Assembly: GCA_017447265.1 (NCBI GenBank)
Contig: JAFSOA010000019.1
Coordinates: forward strand, 1 to 59,959
DNA: 59,959 bases
Reading direction: 5' to 3'
Source: Bacteroidales bacterium
GTDB taxonomy: Bacteria > Bacteroidota > Bacteroidia > Bacteroidales > UBA932
The notes beneath the pieces were generated by a model. It saw only the letters and a list, made by a program, of their open reading frames with translations. It ran no database searches and was not told the DNA's origin. The translations under genes and the position numbers were made by a program. Positions 2,930 to 51,499 of this stretch are shown here, piece by piece. Each line of letters begins with the position of its first letter. Within the stretch, counting starts at the first letter, position 1.

Positions 2930-4411
2930 ATGATTTCCTTCATCCTCGCCCTGGCGGCCCTGGTGGCCGGCTATATTTTCTACGGCCGTTTCGTAGAACG
3001 GGTGTTCGGAGCTGACGACCGGCCGACGCCCGCCATTTCGAAAGCCGACGGAGTGGACTACATTGTCCTGCCGTCGTGGAAGATTTTTATGATTCAGTTC
3101 CTGAACATTGCAGGCACCGGTCCGATCTTCGGCGCGATCATGGGCGCCAAATTCGGGCCTTCGGCCTATCTATGGATCGTTTTCGGCTGCATTTTCGCCG
3201 GTGCGGTGCATGACTACATGTCCGGAATGCTTTCGTCGCGCCATGGCGGCGCGAACCTGCCCGACCTGGTCGGCACCTATCTGGGCAAGAGTACCAAGAC
3301 AGTGATGCTCTTCTTTTCGATTCTGCTGCTGATGATGGTGGGCGCCGTCTTCGTGTTCAGCCCGGCCAAGATCCTGGGCAACATCTGGGAGCCGGCCTTC
3401 TCTGTGGAGCATTTCGGCCCCTACAGCTTCTGGATCACGGTTGTCTTCATCTACTATATCATCGCGACGTTGCTGCCGGTCGACAAGATCATCGGCCGCA
3501 TCTACCCGGTATTTGCCATTGCACTGATTTTCATGGCGGTCGCCCTGATGGTCGTGCTCTTTATGAAGTTCCCGGATATTCCGGAGGTCTGGGAGGGGCT
3601 GAAAGATACGCCCGGCGGCGCACTGACGAAGAATCCGATTTTCCCCTGTCTGTTCATCTCGATTGCCTGCGGGGCCATCAGCGGCTTTCATGCGACGCAG
3701 AGCCCGCTCATGGCGCGCTGCATCAAATCTGAGAAGATGGGCCGGCCCATTTTCTACGGGGCGATGATCACGGAAGGGGCGGTCGCCCTGATCTGGGCCA
3801 CGGTGGCGAGCTATTTCTTCTATGGAAAACCGGAACCGGCCTATCAGCTGATTCCGGGTGGTGTGGACGCCATCAATGACGCGCCTTCCATTGTGCATCT
3901 GGTCTGCAACGACTGGCTGGGTGTCTTTGGCGGCATCCTGGCTATATTGGGCGTGGTTGCTGCGCCGATCACCAGCGGCGATACGGCGCTCCGCAGTGCG
4001 CGCCTGATCATCGCCGATTTTCTGAAACTGGAACAGAAGCAGGTCCGCAAGCGCCTGTATATCTGCATTCCGTTGTTCGCTGCGGTCTTCGCGCTGTTGA
4101 TCTGGCAGATGAATGACCATACCGGCTTCGAGAAGCTCTGGAGCTGGTTCGGCTGGTCGAACCAGGCGCTGTCGGTATTTACCCTCTGGACCGTAACGGT
4201 CTATCTGGTCCGGGAGAAGAAGCTTTTCTGGATTACGCTGGTTCCGGCCTTGTTCATGACCTGGGTCTGCACCACGTTTTTCTTCTTCTCGCCCAACTCC
4301 CTCGGTCTCAGCCTGCCGGTTTCGTATGCCATCGGCTTTGCCGCCGTCCTGACAGCCATCGGCTGGTTCTCCGTGTGGTATAAAAAGAACTGTCGTACGA
4401 CGATCCGCTAG
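2930..4411 (+). CDS. cstA: Carbon starvation protein CstA-family transporter
   Basis: Multi-spanning inner-membrane carrier of the CstA family, whose members import pyruvate or peptides. At 493 residues it is the short form, against about 700 for E. coli CstA. ATG 2930 is chosen because the first hydrophobic helix begins there; an upstream in-frame start at 2891 would overlap the mnmE start and the -7 box. Typical segments include the N-terminal YGRFVERVFGADD and PSWKIFMIQFLNIAGTGPI, then SGFHATQSPLMARC in the middle. Its stop shares the palindrome CTAG with the stop of the convergent GIN-domain gene. Confidence 0.9.
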   Translation: MISFILALAALVAGYIFYGRFVERVFGADDRPTPAISKADGVDYIVLPSWKIFMIQFLNIAGTGPIFGAIMGAKFGPSAYLWIVFGCIFAGAVHDYMSGMLSSRHGGANLPDLVGTYLGKSTKTVMLFFSILLLMMVGAVFVFSPAKILGNIWEPAFSVEHFGPYSFWITVVFIYYIIATLLPVDKIIGRIYPVFAIALIFMAVALMVVLFMKFPDIPEVWEGLKDTPGGALTKNPIFPCLFISIACGAISGFHATQSPLMARCIKSEKMGRPIFYGAMITEGAVALIWATVASYFFYGKPEPAYQLIPGGVDAINDAPSIVHLVCNDWLGVFGGILAILGVVAAPITSGDTALRSARLIIADFLKLEQKQVRKRLYICIPLFAAVFALLIWQMNDHTGFEKLWSWFGWSNQALSVFTLWTVTVYLVREKKLFWITLVPALFMTWVCTTFFFFSPNSLGLSLPVSYAIGFAAVLTAIGWFSVWYKKNCRTTIR

Positions 4412-49315: not shown

Positions 49316-49846
49316 ATGGAATTCTATGTAAGCGACCTGATCGCCACGCCGCCCGAACAATTCGAGACGCCGCTGCAACAGCTTGTCTATGAAACTTTTG
49401 CATCGACGGGCATCCCCTTCGAACGTGTAGATACCGATCCCGGCCTCACCATGGAGGATTGCGCGCACATCAGCGCCCGCATCGGGGTGGACATCGTGAA
49501 GACCATCTTCCTGTGCAACCGCCAGCAGACGGAGTTCTACCTCTATGTCACTTCGCACGACAAGCCGTTCGTGACGCGGGAGTTCTGCAGCGCGCTGGAG
49601 ATTCCGCGGGTGTCCTTCGCTTCCGCCGACCAGTTGTGGGAACGCACGGGGGTGCGGGTGGGCGCTACGACCATCCTCAGCGGCGTCTGGCCTGCCTGTG
49701 CCGGCGTGCACCTGGTCATGGACGCTTCTCTTGCCGCATCCGAGTGGTTCGCCTGCACCGACGGCACCCCCACCTGCTTCGTAAAACTCCGCACGCGCGA
49801 CCTGTTGGAGCGGTATCTCCACGGCCTGGAGGTCCGACTGATATGA
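49316..49846 (+). CDS. YbaK/ProX-type prolyl-tRNA editing domain protein
   Basis: Free-standing aminoacyl-tRNA deacylase domain (PrdX/ProXp group), 176 residues. Members clear Ala- or Cys-tRNA(Pro). Family features: YETFASTGIPFERVDTDPGLTMEDC at the N-terminus, the lysine in VDIVKTIFLCNRQQ, and VRVGATTILSGVWPA with the conserved glycine-rich loop. The stop overlaps the start of the alkylation-repair gene (ATGA). Confidence 0.88.
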   Translation: MEFYVSDLIATPPEQFETPLQQLVYETFASTGIPFERVDTDPGLTMEDCAHISARIGVDIVKTIFLCNRQQTEFYLYVTSHDKPFVTREFCSALEIPRVSFASADQLWERTGVRVGATTILSGVWPACAGVHLVMDASLAASEWFACTDGTPTCFVKLRTRDLLERYLHGLEVRLI

Positions 49847-50841
49847 AAGCGGCGGGGGACGCATCGGCCGGTCCGACGCGGAATAGTCTCCTGCAGACGA
49901 TGCTGGATCACGCCGACCCGTCGCAGGTTGCCGGCCTATCGCGCTTTTTCAAGACGGGTCCGGGGCAGTACGGCGAAGGCGACAAGTTCCTGGGCATCAA
50001 GGTGCCTGTGACGCGCGAGGTGGTTCGCGGCTGCTGGAAGGAGATGCTGCCGGCGGACTGGCAGGAGCGGGCTTCTCGAAGCGAAACGCCTTTCCCGGAG
50101 CTGGAGGAATGCATCCGTTCGGAGTATCACGAAGTGCGCCTGGCGGCTTTATTGACGCTGGTGGAGATCTTCAAGCACGCGAAGAGATCCTTCGTCGCTT
50201 CCGCTCCTCAGGATGACAGGACTTGTCATTCTGAGCGGCTTTCTTGTCATTCTGAGCGAAGCGAAGAATCTATCCAACATAAGTGCGTCGATTTCTATCT
50301 GGCACACACCGCCTTCATCAACAACTGGGACCTGGTGGACCTCTCCTGCTATCCCCTGCTGGGCGAGTGGCTGCTGGACAAAGACCGCAGCCTGCTTTAC
50401 GACCTGGCCCGCAACGGCCGTACCCTCTGGGAGCAGCGCATCGGCATCGTCAGCACCATGACCTTCATCCGCCATGGCCAACTCGACGACACCTTTGCCA
50501 TCGCCGACATCCTCCTCCATCACCCCCACGACCTCATCCATAAAGCGGTCGGCTGGCTCCTGCGTGAAGCCGGCAAGAAGGACAAAGCGGCCCTGGAGGC
50601 GTATCTAAACGGACGGAGATCCTTCGTCGCTAACGCTCCTCAGGATGACAATTGTCATTCTGAGCAACCTTCCTGTCATTCTGAGCGTACTTCCTGTCAT
50701 TCTGAGCAACCTTCCTGTCATTCTGAGCGTAGCGAAGAATCTCATCGTTATTTGCAAATGCCCCGCACCATGCTCCGCTACGCCATCGAAAAATTCCCGG
50801 AGGCGGACCGGCAACTTTATCTGACCGGTCATGCCCATTGA
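49843..50841 (+). CDS. AlkD-like DNA alkylation repair protein with two repeat insertions
   Basis: HEAT-like repeat DNA glycosylase family (AlkD), 332 residues against roughly 230 for the family. ATG 49843 overlaps the previous stop. The family core is intact in pieces: FFKTGPGQYGEGDKFLGI, then AFINNWDLVDLSCYPLLG and MPRTMLRYAIEKFPE. Two blocks do not belong to the family: residues about 115-143 and 259-300, both ending CHSERSEES, encoded by palindromic repeats at 50185-50271 and 50617-50742. Both fall between helices and keep the frame, so the protein may still fold. Confidence 0.88.
   Translation: MKAAGDASAGPTRNSLLQTMLDHADPSQVAGLSRFFKTGPGQYGEGDKFLGIKVPVTREVVRGCWKEMLPADWQERASRSETPFPELEECIRSEYHEVRLAALLTLVEIFKHAKRSFVASAPQDDRTCHSERLSCHSERSEESIQHKCVDFYLAHTAFINNWDLVDLSCYPLLGEWLLDKDRSLLYDLARNGRTLWEQRIGIVSTMTFIRHGQLDDTFAIADILLHHPHDLIHKAVGWLLREAGKKDKAALEAYLNGRRSFVANAPQDDNCHSEQPSCHSERTSCHSEQPSCHSERSEESHRYLQMPRTMLRYAIEKFPEADRQLYLTGHAH
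50185..50271. repeat. Protein-coding palindromic repeat, copy 1
   Basis: 87 bp (29 codons) with termini AGATCCTTCG and CGAAGAATCT and inner CTCAGGATGACA / TGTCATTCTGAG. It contains two TGTCATTCTGAGC units and lies inside the alkylation-repair gene. Confidence 0.9.
50617..50742. repeat. Protein-coding palindromic repeat, copy 2
   Basis: 126 bp (42 codons), same termini as copy 1. It has four TGTCATTCTGAGC units spaced 21 bp, alternating CAACCTTCC and CGTACTTCC spacers. It lies inside the alkylation-repair gene. Confidence 0.9.
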
Positions 50842-51499
50842 GAAACATCCGTTCGAGCCGTTCTCGCCGGAGGGTGCAAGAATCCTGTTCCTGGGGAGTT
50901 TTCCGCCGCAGGAGCACCGCTGGTGCATGCCGTTCTACTACCCGAACTGGATCAACGATTTCTGGCGGATCATGGGACAGATCCACTTCGGAAATAAGGA
51001 CCACTTCTGCATCCCCGCCGAAAAGCGCTTTGACGAAGCAGCCATCCGAGGCTTCTGCACAGACCAGGGCCTGGCCTTCTACGACACGGCCTGCGAAGTG
51101 CGCCGCCTCAAGGGCAATGCCTCCGACGCATCCCTGGAGGTCGTCACGCCCACCGACATCCCCGCCCTGCTCGCCCGGATTCCGGATTGCCACACGCTGG
51201 TCACCACGGGCCAGAAGGCCACCGAGGTCATCGCCGGATCATTTGGCTGCGTCGTTCCACCCGTCGGTGGTTATATCGACATTAGATCCTTCGTCGCTTA
51301 CGCTCCTCAGGATGACAACTGTCATTCTGAGCGTACTTCCTGTCATTCTGAGCAACCTTCCTGTCATTCTGAGCGTACTTCCTGTCATTCTGAGCGAAGC
51401 GAAGAATCTATTCGCTTCTACCGCATGCCCTCCACATCCCGCGCCTATCCGCTGCCGCTGGAGAAAAAAGCCGAAGCCTACCGCAAACTCTTTAAATAA
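50831..51499 (+). CDS. Uracil-DNA-glycosylase-family protein with one repeat insertion
   Basis: 222 residues, Mug/UDG-like fold: ILFLGSFPPQEHRWCMPFYYP at the N-terminus, LAFYDTACEVRRLKGNASD, and the C-terminal MPSTSRAYPLPLEKKAEAYR. Residues about 152-193, just ahead of MPSTSRAYP, are the CHSERSEES-type repeat product (51284-51409) and not part of the family. The gene overlaps the alkylation-repair gene by 11 bp, so the two repair proteins are probably co-expressed. Substrate specificity is uncertain. Confidence 0.82.
   Translation: MPIEKHPFEPFSPEGARILFLGSFPPQEHRWCMPFYYPNWINDFWRIMGQIHFGNKDHFCIPAEKRFDEAAIRGFCTDQGLAFYDTACEVRRLKGNASDASLEVVTPTDIPALLARIPDCHTLVTTGQKATEVIAGSFGCVVPPVGGYIDIRSFVAYAPQDDNCHSERTSCHSEQPSCHSERTSCHSERSEESIRFYRMPSTSRAYPLPLEKKAEAYRKLFK
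51284..51409. repeat. Protein-coding palindromic repeat, copy 3
   Basis: 126 bp (42 codons), termini AGATCCTTCG and CGAAGAATCT, four TGTCATTCTGAGC units at 21-bp spacing. It lies inside the glycosylase gene. Confidence 0.9.

Follow-up and report, generated by a model that had tools for sequence, protein, structure and literature searches.

We report that two overlapping genes for predicted DNA repair enzymes carry three palindromic blocks in frame, within a 59,959-nucleotide stretch of a Bacteroidales draft genome (contig JAFSOA010000019.1 of assembly GCA_017447265.1; hereafter, the window). The blocks are repetitive extragenic palindrome (REP) elements. Very probably, non-autonomous REPs repeatedly colonize insertion-tolerant loops, where they sit as head-to-head dimers that are presumably translated and are tolerated rather than beneficial. 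The host genes, the elements and their parts are listed here.

49843–50841, + strand: host gene 1, 332 amino acids, DNA alkylation repair enzyme of the AlkD kind (PF08713), holding elements 1 and 2
50831–51499, + strand: host gene 2, 222 amino acids, DNA glycosylase resembling the uracil-DNA glycosylase (UDG) superfamily, holding element 3
50185–50271, + strand: element 1, 87 bp, site 1, AlkD residues 115–143, RSFVASAPQDDRTCHSERLSCHSERSEES
50617–50742, + strand: element 2, 126 bp, site 2, AlkD residues 259–300, RSFVANAPQDDNCHSEQPSCHSERTSCHSEQPSCHSERSEES
51284–51409, + strand: element 3, 126 bp, site 3, glycosylase-like residues 152–193, RSFVAYAPQDDNCHSERTSCHSEQPSCHSERTSCHSERSEES
50246–50271, 50717–50742 and 51384–51409, + strand: terminal REP units, GTCAT-(17-nt hairpin with a GNA loop)-ATCT
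50185–50218, 50617–50650 and 51284–51317, − strand: inverted left units (TGTCATCCTGAGG...AAGGATCT on that strand)
50224–50265, + strand: two starts of TGTCATTCTGAGC in element 1
50653–50736 and 51320–51403, + strand: four starts of TGTCATTCTGAGC each, at a 21-bp period, in elements 2 and 3

A first-pass annotation had described termini AGATCCTTCG...CGAAGAATCT, lengths that are all multiples of three and peptides ending CHSERSEES, and all of this, coordinates included, is borne out. Each element consists of an inverted left unit, which makes it a head-to-head dimer, followed by two, four or four right-unit starts (all exact copies of TGTCATTCTGAGC), the last being the complete right unit; the spacers AACCTTCC and GTACTTCC are common to elements 2 and 3. 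With up to two mismatches, TGTCATTCTGAGC has 13 matches in the window, all within the three elements (1.41 expected from shuffles), and 10 of its 20 exact copies in the 2.13-Mb draft genome lie in these elements. No element contains a stop codon in the frame used, and two of the three forward frames are open in each. As single strands, elements 1–3 fold better than shuffled sequences (z = −4.0, −2.2 and −3.3). Elements 2 and 3 are identical at 114 of 126 bases, and of the 30 bases flanking them, 9 agree on the left and 15 on the right; because the elements are nearly identical and their left flanks unlike, a whole dimer-array has been copied between two neighbouring genes. An MP[RS]T motif follows the ends of both elements by five codons (50743–50772 and 51410–51439), probably a coincidence in two otherwise unlike genes. 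Predicted insert–host junction peptides include SFVASAPQDDR after the AlkD residues KR, and TSCHSEQPSCHSER.

The right unit reads GTCAT-TCTGAGC-GNA-GCGAAGA-ATCT, with some variation; the core GCGAAGC is known to form a very stable DNA mini-hairpin. The source genome has ten distinct variants. Five positions vary among them, one being the central base of the loop and the other four forming two stem pairs in which both partners change (T-A, C-G and G-C in one pair; G-C and A-T in the other). Across the ten variants 97% of cells pair, compared with 20–54% for slid pairings, and the covariation score is matched by 4 of 500 shuffles. The unit is dispersed, with 27 copies in the source genome (two mismatches or fewer) and 0–8 in each of the other 39 congeners. 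A second unit shares the pattern GTCAT-N17-ATCT but is rich in CCGG in its stem (GTCAT-GCCCGGCTTGACCGGGC-ATCT is one example); the source genome contains 16 copies, and 21 of 40 congeners carry it, in up to 93 copies. A generic scan for GTCAT-hairpin-ATC over 457 kb of the source genome, window included, gave 30 matches, compared with 6 in a single realization of a Markov control.

In both unit types, window and CCGG, four of the six frames are free of stop codons, which favours survival of copies in frame. A fixed reading frame for the repeat was rejected, as the CHSERSEES, VILSEAKNL, RFFASLRMT and EILRFAQND frames all occur in long spanning open reading frames (ORFs). Elsewhere in the source genome, one further copy lies in the linker of a GH9–polysaccharide deacetylase protein and another within a MacB-like gene (Pfam support on the right side only). 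After one REP end there is a 17-bp tandem run, TAGCGAAGCGAAGAATC (locus L020, G000:C15, about 207652–207703).

The first-pass annotation had called both hosts, which overlap by 11 bp, repair-type genes; the first is firmly placed, the second weakly and at superfamily level. PF08713 matches host gene 1 with E = 2.9e-47 in an alignment that passes through both inserts, and a profile search matches the Bacillus cereus AlkD structures 3jx7 and 5cl4. Residues W162, D166 and R199, unchanged across 32 aligned sequences, we take to be AlkD W109, D113 and R148 in numbering and catalytic roles; with its DNA_alkylation domain and these residues, the predicted protein belongs to the AlkD family. For host gene 2, PF03167 scores weakly (E = 0.05, 14.1 bits, cut-off 24.3), and there is a profile match to PDB 2l3f (E = 3.3e-5). 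Because the DNA-deoxyinosine glycosylase model TIGR04274 (E = 7.2e-10) gives 39.2 bits, under its curated cut-off of 80, we call the product only UDG-superfamily-like. A second copy of this gene, 72% identical and with no REP insert, lies elsewhere in the source genome (L072, G000:C11:32054–32506).

Outside the inserts, both host genes are under purifying selection. The ratio of nonsynonymous to synonymous rates (dN/dS) is 0.095–0.132 for AlkD (five comparisons) and 0.082–0.149 for the glycosylase-like gene (three comparisons), values that are rough because several dS approach or exceed 1. On the branch to the source genome, AlkD has 18 synonymous and 9 nonsynonymous changes. A roughly threefold nonsynonymous excess is the estimated expectation without constraint, and the own-branch counts of both genes stay below it.

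The blocks are absent from orthologues of other families, which have short loops at the insert positions, and both AlkD inserts fall at alignment gaps relative to B. cereus AlkD, presumably inter-helix turns; the proposal that they occupy loops of a conserved protein agrees with this. Among congeners the same loops hold other repeats. Site 1 contains the window unit in the source genome, CCGG-type units in seven orthologues (G007, G036, G023:C29, G026, G028, G032 and G034:C6) and, in G006 and G001, an unrelated long palindrome with one compensatory difference (GATA[T/G]TTCGTTG...CAACGAA[A/C]TATC; L078 and L080). This third palindrome was rejected as a dispersed repeat, with one match per genome in two of the 40 congeners. 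The left flank A[AG]AGA is common to the source gene and six of the seven CCGG-bearing orthologues (not G034:C6), and the right edge ATCT to the source gene and five of the seven (ATCC in G028; an inverted unit only in G032). At site 2, G023:C29 and G026 carry CCGG dimers; G023:C33 carries one CCGG unit with slight damage. At site 3, two relatives (G023:C33 and G032) retain REP-like remnants, and the loops of the others are short or unrelated.

Scanning 34 AlkD ORFs under a strict hairpin rule detected 12 units, of which 11 lie in site 1 or 2, which make up 16.6% of the scanned sequence (the sites were not located in L105 and L108, and the rule misses the window's own unit type); the twelfth belongs to a broken AlkD gene, in G063, with the break itself at site 1. 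The same scan of 20 glycosylase-like ORFs found no unit. All 12 REP-rich congeners have an enlarged site 1, as does 1 of the 11 REP-poor ones (p = 1e-5); the comparison is uncorrected for phylogeny, and its thresholds (10 copies, 14 residues) were chosen with the data in view. The longest loop of each genome was used, for 23 of the 26 congeners that have an AlkD match; G024, G035 and G063 were left out because site 1 was not located in them. Some long loops contain no REP: both AlkD sites of G014 (L086) are filled by long Ser/Pro/Thr-rich repeats, and G036 at site 2 and G010 at site 1 have further examples.

We also searched for the AlkD protein in 19 named metagenome-assembled genomes (MAGs) with Bacteroidetes labels, picked because they carry arrays of the window unit. 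Five of the 12 orthologues read have REPs in the same loops, six are short-looped and one has a non-REP extension. Similarity to these MAGs, all selected under Bacteroidetes labels, is no more than consistent with the Bacteroidales placement in the first-pass annotation. RUG11406 has an inverted window-type unit at site 1 and a CCGG array at site 2; RGIG7900 and RGIG7808 have CCGG units at site 1; hRUG909 has window-type REPs at site 2 and also at site 1, which there lies at the end of a contig; and RUG387 has three window-like units at site 2. Some of these MAGs may be congeners, as the AlkD identity of the REP-bearing five to congeners is 0.80–0.82.

In a first AlkD tree (32 sequences, insert columns removed, loop states assigned by eye), a single clade of 16 members (support 0.92) contains all REP- or palindrome-filled site-1 loops, together with three short loops and two remnants. 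Adding the 12 named orthologues alters the branching: filled loops are then divided between two groups with support of 0.81 and 0.84, and short-looped members occur in both. Both trees group the window AlkD with G023:C33, where site 1 holds a CCGG remnant, and G007, which has a CCGG dimer. Either old insertions have been replaced by other repeats or the same spot has been hit repeatedly. Because the same loops of relatives are repeatedly occupied by other palindromes, the AlkD loops appear to be lasting acceptor sites. A stronger version, which we consider possible but doubtful, is that they are long-lived docking sites where one REP type takes the place of another exactly at its two edges, either inserted into a resident REP or exchanged for it, so that A[AG]AGA...ATCT would stay constant around a changing hairpin.

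Arrays of the window unit occur under many taxonomic labels. Paired 13-base cores, 2–32 bases apart, occur in at least 119 stretches of named genomes, and the titles among the matches listed, from which the array counts below are also drawn, cover more than 10 phyla. They include Bacteroidia, Lachnospiraceae and other Clostridia, Dehalococcoidia, Nitrospirae, Nitrospinota, Parcubacteria, Deltaproteobacteria, Terriglobia, Eremiobacterota, Pelagibacterales, Ignavibacteria, Actinomycetota, Scalindua, Poribacteria, Omnitrophica and the isolate Calothrix PCC 7103; contamination may have made some of the MAG taxon labels wrong. Tandem arrays of many periods, from 17 to 45 bp, are general for this repeat. 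The first-pass annotation had linked the 21-bp period, correct for the window, to preservation of the reading frame. As a general coding signature this was rejected, since periods divisible by three (63 of 147 arrays) are not special overall.

Arrays inside genes are a different matter. For 21 of the 147, the surrounding ORF extends at least 60 codons in each direction, and 18 of these have periods divisible by three; the other three are two arrays before the first domain and one in a domain-less ORF. Ten arrays, distributed over nine proteins, are flanked on each side by Pfam domains or have a domain that continues across them: KsgA, methionyl-tRNA synthetase (MetRS), a dihydroorotate dehydrogenase electron-transfer subunit (one side just under cut-off), MnmE, superoxide dismutase (two arrays), MutL, a glycosyltransferase, a propeller sensor and a TPR/GT41 protein. 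Periods divisible by three characterize all ten of these gene-internal arrays, compared with 53 of the 137 others (Fisher p = 1.3e-4; p = 0.006 when open-frame bias is allowed for by a formula of our own). In the Fe/Mn superoxide dismutase (RUG13086, L181, ORF 3217–4008, − strand), the two arrays lie between Pfam domains at residues 6–53 and 163–259 of 264.

In RUG11406 we located 72 copies, left out 8 places and examined 58 distinct copies or clusters, 20 of which lie in ORFs with at least 50 codons on each side. At least 9 of the 58 are validated in frame inside genes: AroC, Fmt, MetRS (also counted among the ten arrays; L136 and L356), TruA, a non-ribosomal peptide synthetase linker, prephenate dehydratase, CitG, MnmA and a DsbD linker. 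Six more spanning copies are supported on one side, and five are upstream, domain-less or unscanned (the Pfam scan left out 4 alternative-frame ORFs). In AroC, the profile covers residues 1–247 before the insert and 250–327 after it. This chorismate synthase (L334, G068:C3, ORF 1540–2715) has a very long Cys/His-rich insert that ends in the repeat (CHKDDPHHECCHGEHEEGHHCHH...CHSERSEES), possibly an accidental metal-binding segment. Of 19 flank pairs at non-spanning copies, 10 were scanned; 7 have different families on the two sides and 3 have one domain-less side, so there was no split gene among the 7 informative pairs. The idea that coding copies have more tandem units was rejected in this genome (9 coding versus 38 non-spanning copies, Mann–Whitney p = 0.90).

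The closest known system is the CGTC-tagged REP superfamily (Di Nocera, De Gregorio and Rocco 2013, PMC3733652), described from five phyla including Bacteroidetes, with neisserial dRS3 and the Rickettsia palindromic elements RPE-4 and RPE-6 among its members. Like those REPs, ours have a terminal tag (each of the three elements has TGTC ahead of the hairpin, and most units found in relatives have CGTC or TGTC) and a stem opened by a complementary AT; columns 4–24 and 5–23 are invariant A-T and T-A in the ten variants, although the search pattern held those bases, with two mismatches allowed overall. The superfamily stem is 8–9 bp with a 4–5-nt loop, whereas the window stem has 5 bp, a 2-nt mismatch on each side and 2 bp more, around a 3-nt loop, and the units end in ATCT rather than in a short unpaired tail, mostly CCA. 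Because stem, loop and tail depart from the definition, the window unit is best classed as related to the superfamily rather than as a strict member, although a congeneric GTCATGCCCGG-CTTGA-CCGGGCATCT type fits the stem and loop criterion. CGTC-tagged REPs are mostly head-to-head dimers; the three window elements are dimers too, and many other copies in the genome are single. Tandem arrays are frequent here, whereas grouped CGTC elements are called rare outside Neisseriae and Wolbachia (PMC3733652).

The suggested parallel with Rickettsia palindromic elements (Ogata et al. 2000, 2002; PMC2229807) holds and is closer than analogy, because RPE-4 and RPE-6 are themselves filed in the CGTC-tagged superfamily (PMC3733652). 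Those elements, known from 19 reading frames, also lie in frame in conserved proteins, as the window copies are predicted to, and a guanylate kinase that bears one is translated and active with a changed substrate affinity. They are 105–146 bp long with a 12-bp terminal inverted repeat (PMC2229807), whereas here the unit is 26–27 bp, internal units are 21 bp and many phyla are involved. REPs also occur in frame between conserved motifs of subclass 2.4 of the REP-associated tyrosine transposases (RAYTs, tnpAREP), abundant in Bacteroidetes and Cyanobacteria (PMC6006769); these are GT[AG]G-tagged and lie within the transposase gene itself, unlike the window elements. The first-pass annotation judged coding copies to be the unusual point. 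The case is striking, but the kind was already known, because intragenic REPs, many in replication and repair genes, and coding Rickettsia elements are on record (PMC3733652, PMC2229807). Different REPs have even been found at about the same recB site in two Xanthomonas species; neither AlkD as a carrier nor a change of REP type within a single loop appears in the available text of that paper (PMC3733652). Our literature search returned nothing on coding palindromes in Bacteroidetes beyond the available parts of PMC3733652 and PMC6006769, and no paper when the repeat and peptide letters were used. Relative to the literature searched, so far as its text was available, the new points are different repeats in the same AlkD loops across species and the load in ordinary Bacteroidia MAG genes.

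We propose that some enzyme copies REP units, probably as single-stranded hairpins, a mechanism proposed for RAYT–REP systems (PMC6006769). Most units would land between genes; those within a gene would persist only if their length and phase left the frame open at a position able to accept an insertion. In this reading, two loops of AlkD and one of the glycosylase-like protein tolerate flexible insertions of 29–42 residues. The elements probably grew by duplication of 21-bp units, and elements 2 and 3 are copies of one another. On sequence evidence, the inserts are presumably translated with their host proteins and mostly neutral.

Several observations weigh against this explanation or parts of it. 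The 27-nt end unit alone folds no better than shuffles (z = −0.11); the number of pairs changed on both sides is reached by 107 of 500 shuffles; and 2 of 70 cells are unpaired in a structure that itself came from folding one of the same sequences. The source genome has six PF01797-like genes resembling Y1 transposases (G000, L039–L044; open frames of 309–337 amino acids, two under the Pfam cut-off), and no unit was seen in the sequence examined around them, reaching about 1.5 kb each way at most; the attempt to link the repeat to a RAYT gave no result. CGTC-tagged REPs are described as having no dedicated transposase, and a draft that is 78.7% complete limits the search for a mobilizing enzyme. 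The glycosylase-like gene has 14 nonsynonymous and 18 synonymous changes on the source-genome branch. The placement of the inserts in loops is predicted from alignment. Branching is not the same in the first and the enlarged AlkD tree, which makes the numbers of gains uncertain. A frameshift in the same blocks of a close relative, which the first-pass annotation had counted against its own reading, does occur in one congener, G063, in which AlkD has a deletion at the REP and a frameshift, with the REP at site 1; the other congeneric ORFs with filled loops that were read are open through the inserts.

The broken G063 gene could indicate that the hosts are decaying and the inserts lie in pseudogenes, as could the presence of an AlkD match (at a threshold of E 1e-20) in just 26 of 40 congeners, many of whose genomes are incomplete. 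With dN/dS of about 0.1 in both genes, no nonsynonymous excess on the source-genome branch, intact frames and W162, D166 and R199 kept, the host genes do not look like pseudogenes, and we regard decay as very improbable. Less probable still is that the loops are merely hypervariable and of low complexity, with repeats arising in place by slippage. The long non-REP loops of G014, G036 and G010 would suit such an origin, but it hardly accounts for a unit dispersed genome-wide with like ends or for a whole 126-bp dimer-array common to two unrelated genes.

Selection for the inserts is a somewhat more serious alternative, although an unlikely one. They might tune two repair enzymes, for example, as a reversible mutator state set by the number of 21-bp units: both hosts look like repair genes, the loops remain enlarged in many congeners, and further repair genes carry repeats (the MutL linker, L186, and possibly UvrB, L396, on one side only). 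A bias towards repair genes has been noted, and mutator effects speculated on, by Di Nocera et al. (PMC3733652). Yet none of the nine validated RUG11406 hosts is a repair gene, so repair genes as a special target are not supported there; unit number is no higher in coding copies of that genome; and several relatives have short loops. Slightly less likely again, the hairpins could act as RNA or DNA elements with the peptide as a by-product. Roles in transcript stability, translational pausing and gyrase binding have been credited to intergenic REPs (PMC3733652), and the three elements fold as single strands; however, palindromes of unlike sequence fill the same site, so that no particular sequence is kept there.

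These in-frame copies extend protein-coding palindromic repeats beyond Rickettsia and scattered REP cases to conserved enzymes in Bacteroidetes MAGs. One practical consequence is that peptides such as CHSERSEES, RFFASLRMT and ILRFAQND in predicted proteins can be translated repeats rather than family signatures. The natural series of short, remnant, single, dimer and array forms lets the effect of a selfish insert on an enzyme be measured. If the AlkD loops do prove to be docking sites, REPs would be exchangeable protein-coding cassettes that share a single-stranded DNA mechanism in many related species.

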